A DNA stretch of 19,741 nt from Cytophagales bacterium (GTDB taxonomy: Bacteria; Bacteroidota; Bacteroidia; Cytophagales; Amoebophilaceae). Below the pieces are notes generated by a model that worked only from the letters and a program-made list of their open reading frames with translations, was not told the origin of the DNA and did not search any database. The DNA lies in assembly GCA_022360235.1 (NCBI GenBank), contig JAKSDE010000214.1, positions 1 through 19,741 on the forward strand, given 5' to 3'. Positions 5,879 to 12,647 of this stretch are shown in pieces. Position numbers and translations under genes: made by a program. The number at the start of each line of letters is the position of its first letter. The stretch's first letter is position 1.

Positions 5879-7144
5879 TTAAAAGTAAACAACGAAGCGC
5901 AGTCGACAAAAGTTTTTAAAACTAGGTTCTGGGTTCCGAGTTCCGAGTTCTGGGTTCTGGGTTCCGAGTTCCGAGTTCTGGGTTCCGGGTTCCGAGTTCT
6001 GGGTTCCGGGTTCCGAGTTCTGGGTTCTGGGTTCCGAGTTCTGGGTTCCGGGTTCCGAGTTCCGAGTTCTGGGTTCCGAGTTCCGAGTTCCGAGTTCTGG
6101 GTTCCGGGTTCCGAGTTCTGGGTTTCTAACCAAATTTTTCAGACAGGCAATCCAAGTAGGAGAAGTGTTAAGGCTTTCTACCCACTGCCAGTAATTACCG
6201 CCTGCTTCTTTAAAAATAGTTTTAAACTCCTCACCTACTTCAATCGTAGTCTCTAGGCAGTCAGCCACAAAGGAAGGTGAAAAAATGAGTATATTCTTTT
6301 TTCCTTCATTGACTAACGCTTTTAGCAAATCATCAGTATAAGGCTTTAGCCAAGGGCTGTTTCCTAAGCGAGATTGAAAACTTACGGTATATGCTTCTTC
6401 TCGAATAGGTAAGGCTTCTGCTAATAACCGAGATGTTTGAAAGCATTGTGCTCGGTAGCAGAAATAGTTTTTATGCTGGTAAGTAGTACAGCATTGCTCA
6501 TTGAGTTGACAATAATTGTTACATGAACCCTTGCTGATTTGTCTTTCTGGTAAGCCATGGTAGCTAAATAGCACATGATCAAATTTTCGCTTGGCTAAAT
6601 ATTTTTTTCCTATCTCTGCCCATGCTTGAATGAATAGAGGTTCTTCGAGAAAATTACTTATAAAAGTAATGTTGGGGATGATAGGCCATTTTTTCACTAA
6701 CGCCATTATTTTGTCAATCACCGATCCTGTAGTAGCGGAAGCATACTGTGGAAAAAGTGGAATAACGATAATTTTTTTCAAGCATGCTTTTTCCATTTCT
6801 TTCAATACACTAGGTATACTAGGATTTTGATAGCGCATCGCAATTGCTACCCAATAGTCTTCTCCTAATTCTTTTTGTAATAATGCCGCCACTTGCTTAC
6901 CATAGACGAGCAAAGGAGACGCTTCTTTTTCCCATAGCTTTTTGTATATCTTAGCAGATTGAGGCGCTCTGAAAGGGGTAATGATGAGATTTACTAGCAA
7001 CAATCTTAAGAGAAAAGGGATGTCAATCACACGTTTATCCATTAAAAATTCTCGGAGGTATCTACGTACATCTTTAGTAGCAGGGCTCGTGGGTGTGCCT
7101 AAATTAACCAATAGTATGCCTGTTGTGGGCTGTTTGGGTTGCAT
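5879..7144 (-). CDS. hemH: Ferrochelatase with a heptapeptide-repeat C-terminal extension
   Basis: This enzyme inserts Fe2+ into a porphyrin in the last step of heme synthesis. The N-terminal LLVNLGTP, the catalytic histidine H196 in SYHGLPER, and FVADCLETTIE with E298 identify the family. The chelatase body ends near residue 340, the usual length for bacterial HemH. After it comes a 66-residue tail of about nine heptapeptides, N-(S/P)-E-(P/L)-(G/R)-T-(Q/R), encoded by the 7-bp tandem array at 5925-6120, then a 15-residue end PSFKNFCRLRFVVYF. This tail is not part of the family and is probably the result of repeat insertion. A cysteine-rich stretch (208-234: C208, C212, C218, C219, C229, C234) follows the active-site loop; some Bacteroidota ferrochelatases carry cysteines here, but I cannot show metal binding. 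The stop lies 3 bp before polA. Confidence 0.93.
   Translation of the reverse strand: MQPKQPTTGILLVNLGTPTSPATKDVRRYLREFLMDKRVIDIPFLLRLLLVNLIITPFRAPQSAKIYKKLWEKEASPLLVYGKQVAALLQKELGEDYWVAIAMRYQNPSIPSVLKEMEKACLKKIIVIPLFPQYASATTGSVIDKIMALVKKWPIIPNITFISNFLEEPLFIQAWAEIGKKYLAKRKFDHVLFSYHGLPERQISKGSCNNYCQLNEQCCTTYQHKNYFCYRAQCFQTSRLLAEALPIREEAYTVSFQSRLGNSPWLKPYTDDLLKALVNEGKKNILIFSPSFVADCLETTIEVGEEFKTIFKEAGGNYWQWVESLNTSPTWIACLKNLVRNPELGTRNPELGTRNSEPRTRNSEPGTQNSEPRTQNSEPGTQNSEPGTQNSELGTQNPELGTRNPEPSFKNFCRLRFVVYF
5925..6120. repeat. 28-unit heptanucleotide tandem array inside hemH
   Basis: Twenty-eight consecutive perfect units fit RGTTCYG (plus strand), with variation only at positions 1 (A/G) and 6 (C/T); a partial unit continues to 6125. 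On the coding strand no phase contains a stop, so the array is translated in hemH as heptapeptides (residues about 342-407). The total of 196 bp is not a multiple of 3, so the array shifts the frame of everything after it. The same motif recurs at 10595-10685 and 16814-16820. Confidence 0.97.
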
Positions 7145-9888: not shown

Positions 9889-10542
9889 TTAGCTAATTTT
9901 ATTATGACTTTTCATCCATACAGATTCTTTTAGAATTGTATAGGCATGATGGCCTTCACAAAATAATAAATCAATAATACTTAAATTCGTAACAAATTCT
10001 TTGCTATAGACTTGCTGATAGCAAAATGGTTGATAAAATTTATTTTTTCTAAAGTCAGTCTTTGGATGAATGACAGCCCTTGCATCTACCACTGACGATC
10101 CCACCTCTTTTTCATAACAGCTAGACAATTCGATCTTTTTTTCGAGTTGCAGAAGCTTAAAACAAGCTAATAATATTTCTATATTAAAGTCAAATAAAAA
10201 CTTATACTTCTTTAAAAAAATAGAATGAAAGTATTCCATAAAGTATGCAAAATAAGGGGCTTTACTATAGGCTATACAAAGTGTACGCCAGTGAATGTTG
10301 GACCACTTTTGACTATAGTCGACCTTAATATCCCTGTATTTAATTTTTTGTCTACCACCTAGTACGGGAATAGTTAGCCTATCAACCTTTTGAGCAGTCA
10401 AAATGTAGCATCGGTTACGGTAGCTCTGTTTTTGATAATGCTCATGAGCCTCAAGTATAATGGTAGGGTAAGGTAATAAACAAGTGAAGTACTCCAAACT
10501 TGGTAGGTAATGTAAGTCTATCAAAAGTGTTGATTTACCCAT
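9889..10542 (-). CDS. WbqC-like family protein
   Basis: This 217-residue protein matches what is known of the WbqC-like family (PF08889), common in Bacteroidota and often linked to surface-polysaccharide loci; the reaction is uncertain. Visible family traits are the N-terminal LHYLPSLEYFTCLL, the EAHEHYQKQSYRNRCYI segment (about 31-47), a TIPVLGG turn, and IKVDYSQKWSNIHWRTL around residues 72-88. There is no signal peptide or clear membrane span, so it is probably cytosolic. Length is near normal for the family. The ATG at 10542 sits only 52 bp below a heptamer array, and an open frame reading through that array from the IS remnant overlaps the start by 8 bp, so the original promoter region seems to have been replaced by repeats. 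It is followed by clpC. Confidence 0.8.
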   Translation of the reverse strand: MGKSTLLIDLHYLPSLEYFTCLLPYPTIILEAHEHYQKQSYRNRCYILTAQKVDRLTIPVLGGRQKIKYRDIKVDYSQKWSNIHWRTLCIAYSKAPYFAYFMEYFHSIFLKKYKFLFDFNIEILLACFKLLQLEKKIELSSCYEKEVGSSVVDARAVIHPKTDFRKNKFYQPFCYQQVYSKEFVTNLSIIDLLFCEGHHAYTILKESVWMKSHNKIS

Positions 10543-10554
10543 AGGTTTGTTTAT

Positions 10555-10605
10555 TTAGTCGATCCTGAATAACGTTCGATAGTTCTATTTTTTTAGTTCC
10601 GAGTT
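10555..10605. repeat. 51-bp flank of the heptamer element (copy 1)
   Basis: It matches 16774-16824 at 46 of 51 positions without gaps, including a shared run of T followed by the first heptamer. The array is therefore part of a larger dispersed element with a defined left flank, and not a locally arisen slippage tract. Confidence 0.8.
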
Positions 10606-10685
10606 CCGAGTTCTGAGTTCTGAGTTCTGAGTTCTGAGTTCCGAGTTCTGAGTTCCGAGTTCTGAGTTCCGAGTTCTGAGTTCTG
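10595..10685. repeat. 13-unit heptanucleotide array upstream of the WbqC-like gene
   Basis: Thirteen perfect units of AGTTCYG (plus strand), plus a partial unit to 10691. Only position 6 varies, so this array is less diverse than the one in hemH, where position 1 also varies. It runs directly into the IS remnant at 10703. On the plus strand the CTGA junctions create TGA stops; the minus strand is open in all phases. Confidence 0.97.
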
Positions 10686-10702
10686 AGTTCCTGATTTCGA
10701 TA

Positions 10703-10833
10703 GGGGACTGTAGAAAACACGCCTTTCCCCGTCAAAAAGTTGCTCGATAGACCTCCTCGAGCACCGTATTTGACTATAAGCGGGTAAACCATAACTGAAT
10801 TGAAGCAATTCCTACCTCGTTTTCTACAGCCCC
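10703..10833. mobile_element. 131-bp IS/MITE remnant with inverted ends
   Basis: The left end reads GGGGACTGTAGAAAAC and the right end, reverse complemented, GGGGCTGTAGAAAAC; 11 bp (CTGTAGAAAAC) are identical. Inside is a 7-bp hairpin, TGCTCGA (10741-10747) with TCGAGCA (10757-10763). No transposase fits in this length. The ends resemble those at 321-341 and 11148-11166, so these probably belong to one IS group; the IS family was not identified. Confidence 0.6.
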
Positions 10834-10868
10834 AGTAATAAATAGTCGACCCTTAACAAGTATTCAAT

Positions 10869-11201: not shown

Positions 11202-12647
11202 ATGCTTACAAATTGTCTATCTATCATCTTGGTCACTACACTGCTGGTTGGTGCCTATAAAAACAGCAATAAGGATAAAAATGCTGCTACACCACATAAC
11301 GCGTTTACACCATCTCCTAGTACCTTAGAACTAGAAGTAACAACTGAAGATCTTAGAATGAATTGCTCTCGCCAGTTAGGTGGTGAGTTCTTAGATGCTG
11401 TAGAAAAAGGAGACTTTAAAGAAGTGAAAAGGTTGATAGAGCAGGAGGAAGTTGATGTGAATGCAAACGATAGTCAAGGAAAGACTGCCTTACACTGTGC
11501 AGCTGAGAGGGGCCATAAAGAGGGAGCAGAAGTACTTTTAGAAAACGGCGCAGAGGTGAAGGCAAAAGATGAGGAGGATGGTACGCTTCTGCACGCGGCA
11601 GTAGCAATTGGCCACAAAGCGTTTGTAGAATACCTCCTTAAGAATGGCGCTGCTATCAATGCAATAGATAATAATGGTCAGACGCCCCTGCACGTGGCAG
11701 CTAGGTATGGCCACAAAGAGGTAGTAGCCTTACTTTTATCCAAGGGCGCCGTAGTGGATGCAAAAGGAGGACTTTTTGGTGAGACGCCCCTGCACGCAGC
11801 AGCTATGAGTGGCCATAAAGAGATAGCAGAAGTACTTTTAGAAAACGGCGCAGAGGTGGAGGCAAAAGATAATAATGATAGTACGCCCCTGCACGCGGCA
11901 GCTCTCAATGGCCATAAAGAGATAGCAAAAGTACTTTTAGAAAACGGCGCAGCTAGGGAGGCAAAAAATAAGGGTGATTGGACGCCCCTGCATTTGGCAG
12001 CTATGGATGGCCAGAAAGAGGTAGCAGAAGTACTTTTAGAAAACGGCGCAGAGGTGGGGGCAAAAGATAAGTATGGTCAGACGCCCCTGCACTTAGCAGC
12101 CAAGCAAGGTCACAAAGAGGTCGTAGAAGCCCTTATTACAAATGGCGCAGAGGTGGAGGCAAAAGAGAAGGCTGGTAGGACACCCCTGCACTATGCAGCT
12201 GCAAATGGCCAAAAAGAGGTAGCAGAGTTACTTTTAGAAAATAGCGCAGAGGTGGAGGCAAAAGATAATAATGATAGTACACTCCTACACTATGCAGCTT
12301 TCTATGGCCATAAAGCGATAGCAGAAGTACTTTTAGACAACGGCGCAGAGGTGGAGGTAAAAGATAAGTATAGTCAGACGTCCCTGCACTGGGCAGCAGC
12401 AAATGGCCAAAAAGAGTTAGCAGAAGTACTTTTAGAAAACAGCGCAGATGTAGAGGCAAAAGAGAAGGATGGCTGGACGCCCCTACACTGTGCAGCTTTC
12501 TATGGCCATAAAGCGGTAGCAGAAGTACTTTTAGAAAACGGCGCAGAGGTGAAGGCAAAAGATAAGTATGGTCAGACGCTCCAGCGCTTGGCAGCAGAAA
12601 AGGGGCACCCAGCAGTCGCAGAACTCCTTAAAAGCTTTAAACGCTGA
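11202..12647 (+). CDS. Exported ankyrin-repeat protein
   Basis: 481 residues. The N-terminus (LSIILVTTLLVGA at about 6-18, then a polar KNSNKDKN stretch) looks like a signal peptide; there is no lipobox cysteine after it. A low-complexity linker (about 20-55) leads into a half repeat (FLDAVEKGDFKEVKRLI, from about residue 63) and about 12 ankyrin repeats of 33 residues with the consensus G-TPLH-AA--GHKE-AEVLLENGAEV-AKD. The array fills the protein to its end, with no extra effector domain. Repeats are very alike at the DNA level, and residues 335-400 and 401-466 form a 66-residue tandem duplication. Ankyrin proteins of amoeba- and arthropod-associated bacteria are often host-interaction effectors; that role is inferred here. 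It is the only large plus-strand gene and is bordered by IS debris. Its target cannot be told from sequence. Confidence 0.88.
   Translation: MLTNCLSIILVTTLLVGAYKNSNKDKNAATPHNAFTPSPSTLELEVTTEDLRMNCSRQLGGEFLDAVEKGDFKEVKRLIEQEEVDVNANDSQGKTALHCAAERGHKEGAEVLLENGAEVKAKDEEDGTLLHAAVAIGHKAFVEYLLKNGAAINAIDNNGQTPLHVAARYGHKEVVALLLSKGAVVDAKGGLFGETPLHAAAMSGHKEIAEVLLENGAEVEAKDNNDSTPLHAAALNGHKEIAKVLLENGAAREAKNKGDWTPLHLAAMDGQKEVAEVLLENGAEVGAKDKYGQTPLHLAAKQGHKEVVEALITNGAEVEAKEKAGRTPLHYAAANGQKEVAELLLENSAEVEAKDNNDSTLLHYAAFYGHKAIAEVLLDNGAEVEVKDKYSQTSLHWAAANGQKELAEVLLENSADVEAKEKDGWTPLHCAAFYGHKAVAEVLLENGAEVKAKDKYGQTLQRLAAEKGHPAVAELLKSFKR
12204..12599 (+). repeat. 198-bp tandem duplication within the ankyrin gene
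   Basis: Segments 12204-12401 and 12402-12599 are close copies, each covering two ankyrin repeats (66 residues, both beginning NGQKE and containing AAFYGHKA and KDKY). It shows recent growth of the array by unequal exchange or slippage. Confidence 0.75.

Follow-up and report, generated by a model that had tools for sequence, protein, structure and literature searches.

The ferrochelatase gene (hemH) of this Cytophagales bacterium runs, without a break in frame, into an array of 28 perfect heptamers: judged from the sequence, the array would be translated as a tail of heptapeptides attached to the end of the enzyme. The same heptamer is dispersed over the genome, and the tail is, in our view, likely to be a by-product of this slippage-prone repeat having come to lie at a stop codon. 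The array was found in a stretch of 19,741 nucleotides (the window), the features of which that concern hemH are as follows.

5879..7144, minus strand: hemH (ferrochelatase) open reading frame (ORF) with repeat tail, 421 aa, PF00762 at residues 8–341
6122..7144, minus strand: ferrochelatase body, residues 1–341, as delimited by the Pfam range, an alignment with 34 homologues and AlphaFold2 secondary structure, which reaches to about residue 340
5925..6120, plus strand: RGTTCYG array of 28 perfect units, read as CRGAACY in the sense of hemH
5882..6121, minus strand: hemH tail, residues 342–421, with nine heptapeptides and part of another, then about 14 unique residues
3065..5875, minus strand: polA, the next gene, named from a reading of its translation, with its ATG 3 nt after the hemH stop

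Checked unit by unit, the 196 bp at 5925–6120 consist of units that fit RGTTCYG in 28 of 28 cases (12 GGTTCCG, eight AGTTCTG, five AGTTCCG and three GGTTCTG). As perfect 7-bp units joined head to tail they belong to the class of bacterial heptanucleotide tandem repeats (long SSRs). An earlier note on this DNA had placed the 28 units within the hemH frame and counted about nine copies of a heptapeptide; the ORF does read through the array from 7144 to 5879 on the minus strand, and the predicted translation contains nine full copies of [QR]N[SP]E[LP][GR]T and one partial copy. The note also held that the coding strand is free of stops in all phases, and none was found in any of the 256 four-unit concatenations of CRGAACY, whereas 148 of 256 contain stops, often TGA, on the opposite (RGTTCYG) strand. 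This openness is by itself not special, since, of the 16384 pure heptamers, 11260 likewise lack stops in every phase of a given strand. At the 27 unit junctions of the hemH array T is followed by G ten times and by A never, so that here the opposite strand lacks TGA as well, in contrast to that of, for example, a second array in the window (10595–10685); the missing T–A junctions are probably a founder effect. Units also recur within the hemH array with a periodicity of three and of four units.

The array lies beyond the enzyme's normal end, as had been claimed: in a Pfam scan PF00762 (profile positions 2–315 of 317, E 4.7e-104) ends at residue 341, and the array begins with the next codon. 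The claim of an unbroken enzyme body stands as well, residues 1–341 being open, containing the whole domain and aligning with homologues. The proposed comparison with other ferrochelatases was made on the 120 best of 7994 matches, and the heptapeptide is present in none of these 120. The motif VESLN occurs in 114 of the 120 listed homologues, which end 15–36 residues beyond it; in the protein described here 15 residues separate VESLN from the array. In 34 of the 120, which were aligned, the C-terminus is short and variable, and no tail is present. The closest protein among the matches listed, P0001 (metagenomic, and known as protein only), is a normal-length homologue of 343 aa that is 90% identical, aligns to the HemH body without gaps and ends in LVLQAI. 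Because the frame is in register with P0001 through LV, a frame error hiding a stop before the array is ruled out as far as that point.

The register with P0001 bears equally on the possibility that the array is an assembly error, with a wrong number of units or a false join between two contigs that bear arrays. The genome (1.87 Mb) is a draft assembly of 528 contigs, on which the hemH unit count rests, and for 15 of the 70 arrays described below a contig end is no more than 60 bp away. Moreover, contig C263 starts with adaptor-like letters (L142:1–18, adjoining a 45-unit array) that we take to be Illumina sequence, so short reads are probable. Such an error is nonetheless distinctly improbable, the frame holding through LV and the inspected unit counts still yielding either a tail or termination directly behind the array.

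Structure prediction with AlphaFold2 (on a 35-row alignment) gave a mean pLDDT of 74.1, with residues 351–421 below 50, which suggests a disordered tail. In other ferrochelatases C-terminal extensions aid placing, binding or stability, and in solved mitochondrial ferrochelatases about 36 further residues follow the matched segment, which ends at 323 in a chain of 359; the tail could by analogy have been selected for a role of this kind. The low pLDDT of the tail speaks against such selection, as does the occurrence of the same peptide on smc and on unrelated proteins elsewhere, and we hold it to be very unlikely.

The earlier note had further called the enzyme body essential, which is doubtful: none of the family's 20 other genomes contains an intact hemH. 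Completeness is at least 90% in 18 of these genomes and below 90% in two, and one of the 20 has only a hemH fragment containing one TAG and four TAA. These absences are what would be expected if the array marked the early decay of hemH, tolerated under weak selection, in a lineage on its way to losing the enzyme. We nevertheless think such decay unlikely: the body is open throughout and aligns gap-free to P0001, hemE is still open in the same genome, and smc – a chromosome gene of another kind – carries the same tail. With the hemH body intact weak selection is possible, and decay is compatible with it.

When the number of units was changed in silico (0–33 units were computed, of which 0–3 and 25–30 were inspected), HemH residues 1–341 always stayed intact, and the three phases of unit number placed the hemH stop at −46, −3 or +4, counted from the polA ATG, the last of these overlapping the ATG. 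As none of the inspected unit numbers damages the body and all bring the stop close to the start of polA, such changes would be almost invisible to selection. The same three endings might instead be taken as a three-state switch, in which unit number modulo 3 places the hemH stop and tunes the coupled translation of polA; there is no sign of selection for a phase, however, and 40 of the 50 arrays of at least three units lie outside long ORFs, and we consider a switch extremely unlikely.

Beyond hemH, the genome contains 636 three-unit matches to RGTTCYG (overlapping ones counted) against none for the backward pattern, and the repeat is therefore not a product of chance. Its distribution among relatives is patchy: three-unit matches are present in none of 56 relatives (20 of these from the same family), and among 394 further genomes of the class 11 have between one and sixteen matches each, 59 in all. 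The backward pattern gives nine matches in four of the 394 genomes, so the excess beyond the bacterium's own genome is real but small. Arrays were delimited in the window and in 60 fetched contigs, which make up roughly one fifth of the genome and of which 49 bear arrays and 11 are fillers; the array-bearing set is partial, tail-like matches being present in six more contigs (C265, C268, C291, C324, C413 and C461). Allowing gaps of up to 21 bp, the window and fetched contigs hold 70 dispersed arrays of at least two perfect units, 50 of which have at least three, and the number of perfect units varies from 2 to 45.

Placement was scored relative to mechanical ORFs. For the 40 arrays outside ORFs of at least 100 aa, the 3′ end of a gene is no more than 50 bp away in 18 of 61 neighbour relations, compared with 8.5% for random intergenic positions. 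In 13 of these 18 the RGTTCYG strand is the sense strand, which makes hemH and smc, with CRGAACY as sense, cases of the rarer orientation. Arrays with the same sense strand as that of hemH begin 1, 9 and 21 bp past ORF stops in L124, L145 and L146, respectively. An array with 23 perfect units (L146:2002–2197) lies within a ribosomal operon, between genes that by eye are putatively those of ribosomal proteins L23 and L2.

The earlier note had suggested a search for the heptamer within other genes. In the window and fetched contigs ten arrays of at least three units, those of hemH and smc included, lie within ORFs of at least 100 aa, and in all ten the stop-free strand is the coding strand. Seven of the ten array-bearing ORFs were scanned against Pfam (three array-dominated ORFs were left out); the array follows the domain in hemH and smc and precedes it in the semialdehyde dehydrogenase, hemE, rnpA, exonuclease and ZnuA-like ORFs. 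Arrays that precede the domain may simply be a leader before a later start codon.

The smc gene provides a second C-terminal tail. Its array (L161:3569–3669, contig C511) starts 4–5 residues past VPVDLR and continues to the contig end. VPVDLR is present in 98 of the 119 smc homologues listed, which end 3–8 residues beyond it, with 21 lacking the exact motif; the heptapeptide is found in none of the 119. The arrays thus sit at the natural ends of both the HemH and the smc protein, and two housekeeping proteins are extended in one genome. Accordingly, the tail is not special to hemH but ordinary for repeats of this kind, and the hemH–smc double case is a clean example. The statement that non-coding repeat was here converted into protein is fair for hemH; as a unique event it does not hold, given that smc is alike and that, for another heptamer, the same is described in the part of PMC4679880 concerned. 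Together the two genes offer a clear case of new protein tails arising from simple repeats at stop codons, and annotators are warned that the heptapeptide is a repeat and not a domain.

We propose that an array located at, or next to, the stop codon of hemH grew and thereby eliminated it; ribosomes would then continue across the repeat and terminate at the following stop codon, immediately upstream of polA. With selection hardly seeing changes in unit number, the tail would then drift as a disordered and probably neutral appendage; both its translation and its neutrality are what we infer. The three- and four-unit periodicity in hemH, and the fact that each array has a unit pattern of its own, fit local slippage or duplication. 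Similarly, the arrays lying 1, 9 and 21 bp past other stops fit growth next to a stop codon followed by loss of the stop. The earlier note had spoken of an insertion, but growth by slippage beside the stop codon, which was then swallowed, fits too.

Other candidate origins were considered as well. The hemH flanks (225 and 280 bases) match only themselves in the window and the 60 fetched contigs, and no named mobile element was seen at hemH in those contigs; many other arrays, unlike hemH, lie inside or beside interspersed repeat elements, the second array of the window among them. Copying of array segments from locus to locus is not supported for hemH, which shares at most six units with any other array of at least eight units, and six is reached in 184 of 300 simulated sets. 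Selection on the frame, which would leave three-unit periodicity in coding arrays only, is not supported either: hemH has both three- and four-unit periodicity and runs of three units are visible by eye outside genes. Rickettsia palindromic elements are selfish DNA that adds a peptide to the protein whose frame it enters, but they are palindromic single insertions; the hemH units are direct repeats, in which the RGTTCYG strand contains no GAAC.

With the tail region as query, 54 proteins of 230–740 aa and of unrelated kinds were listed. A loose pattern of the heptapeptide is present in 50 of them, within 30 residues of the C-terminus in eight, within 10 of the N-terminus in five and mostly internal in the rest; four of the 54 have no match to it. 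Many of the 54 are single metagenomic ORFs, so that their start sites are uncertain. They include proteins that we take to be TsaD, a lipoyl transferase and a MutL-like protein (from source names and Pfam numbers). The source names given include Burkholderia pseudomallei (thirteen proteins) and shrimp (one). One protein, P0125, bears no source, just as the smc protein of this bacterium (P0175) bears none, and may be encoded in the same genome.

Known heptamer systems offer both likenesses and differences. The short tandemly repeated repetitive sequences (STRR) of heterocystous cyanobacteria are heptanucleotide tandem repeats, with units and hosts that differ from those of the RGTTCYG case; STRR are mentioned for Calothrix in the passages concerned of PMC4692102. 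Comparable are the TAACTGA direct repeats of Beggiatoaceae, some Cyanobacteria and Bacteroidetes, which according to the relevant part of PMC4679880 reach up to 43 copies in some genomes. Like the present arrays these are 7-bp tandem repeats, dispersed, mostly intergenic and patchy over phyla, with translated copies at protein ends: in reverse they are translated as LSVISYQ, in some proteins at the very end (MurG, for example), and insertion into coding sequence is described as succeeding mainly at the protein periphery. With translated heptamer repeats at protein ends described in that part of the paper, the hemH tail becomes a case of a known phenomenon. The TAACTGA unit is nonetheless another one, with stops in all frames in one orientation, and its repeats lie mainly just upstream of start codons (same part of PMC4679880), whereas RGTTCYG arrays crowd behind stop codons. 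A second comparison is with the GGGAATC and GGGGA(C/T)T heptamers of Xanthomonas and Nostoc, in arrays of 2–26 units, which in the passages concerned of PMC4692102 share the preference for 3′ ends, overlap with stop codons included; their unit is a G-quadruplex former, and hemH and smc differ from them in having the opposite strand as sense. Literature searches with heptamer strings of 12–13 letters returned no bacterial repeat study recognizable as such from its title and the start of its abstract.

The heptamers are also found at the 5′ ends of group II introns. Group II introns start with GUGYG and recognize their exons by EBS1/IBS1 pairing. Rfam returned 19 group-II-D1D4-2 sites in the genome, with the 5′ junction visible in 18: seven follow an exact RGTTCY, one a decayed unit (GGTTTC) and one (L228) units with an extra G; four lie at one site in a second intron and five have other exons. 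When the fetched contigs, which were chosen for heptamers and are thus a biased sample, are added, nine of 18 distinct D1D4-2 junctions end in RGTTCY. Of nine distinct junctions of the second intron, seven come directly after RGTTCYG and an eighth after a decayed unit. Rfam at lax settings assigned the second intron to group-II-D1D4-7 from the one copy scanned (L152, without a heptamer exon), and the other copies have the same first bases as L152. The junctions at heptamers are as follows.

L122, L123, L125, L129, L139, L157, L163, L222, L235: 5′ ends of D1D4-2 introns
L116, L121, L140, L147, L149, L160, L232: 5′ ends of the second intron

In all nine RGTTCY junctions the R is G, compared with 36% of units (0.36^9 = 9e-5, copies treated as unrelated). 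In the two heptamer-exon D1D4-2 copies with an uninterrupted domain I an EBS1-like loop at about nucleotide 245 reads CGGAACC, the GGAACC of which is complementary to GGTTCY, with T accommodated by a G–U pair. The sequences of L122 and of four further copies with heptamer exons diverge upstream of this loop. A D1D4-2 copy inside the second intron has the exon GCTAGG and the loop CCTGGC, which pair with one G–U. The loop of L228 (CCCTCCC) does not pair with its own exon, which counts against the EBS1 match. On these sequence comparisons heptamer units seem to serve as landing sites for mobile group II introns; if this holds, mobile introns would be using a tandem repeat as a safe site. In L116, L149, L160 and L232 a D1D4-2 intron is nested, twintron-like, within the second intron, in each case at the same site, which follows CTGCTAGG.

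Judged by titles and the start of abstracts, the literature searched contained no case of group II introns homing to heptamers. A family-related genome paper mentions group II introns, heptamers being absent from the passages concerned (PMC9769881), and introns and tandem repeats in algal mitochondria are treated together in passages that do not speak of homing to repeats (PMC8742464). One could go further and regard the heptamer as a common currency of this genome: free of stops and prone to slippage, it would grow C-terminal tails at stop codons, it would be the homing target of two group II families for which arrays are harmless landing pads, and its unit number in hemH would set, modulo 3, a three-state coupling to polA. 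So inclusive a reading strikes us as unlikely. For the tail itself the reading that we prefer is still the by-product of a heptamer at a stop codon.

The surroundings of the second array in the window consist of the following features.

10595..10685, plus strand: second heptamer array, 13 units, in a short ORF (10535–10792, minus strand) upstream of the WbqC-like gene
9892–10542: WbqC-like gene (PF08889)
10549..10834 (approximate limits), no strand assigned: interspersed repeat element containing the second array, parts of which match at least 12 other fetched contigs

The element around the second array is present in many copies, some of which hold two or three heptamer units and others more. 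Further along the window (11202–12647) an ORF of 481 aa, ankyrin-repeat-like by eye, lies over a 99-bp tandem repeat of 10.9 copies.
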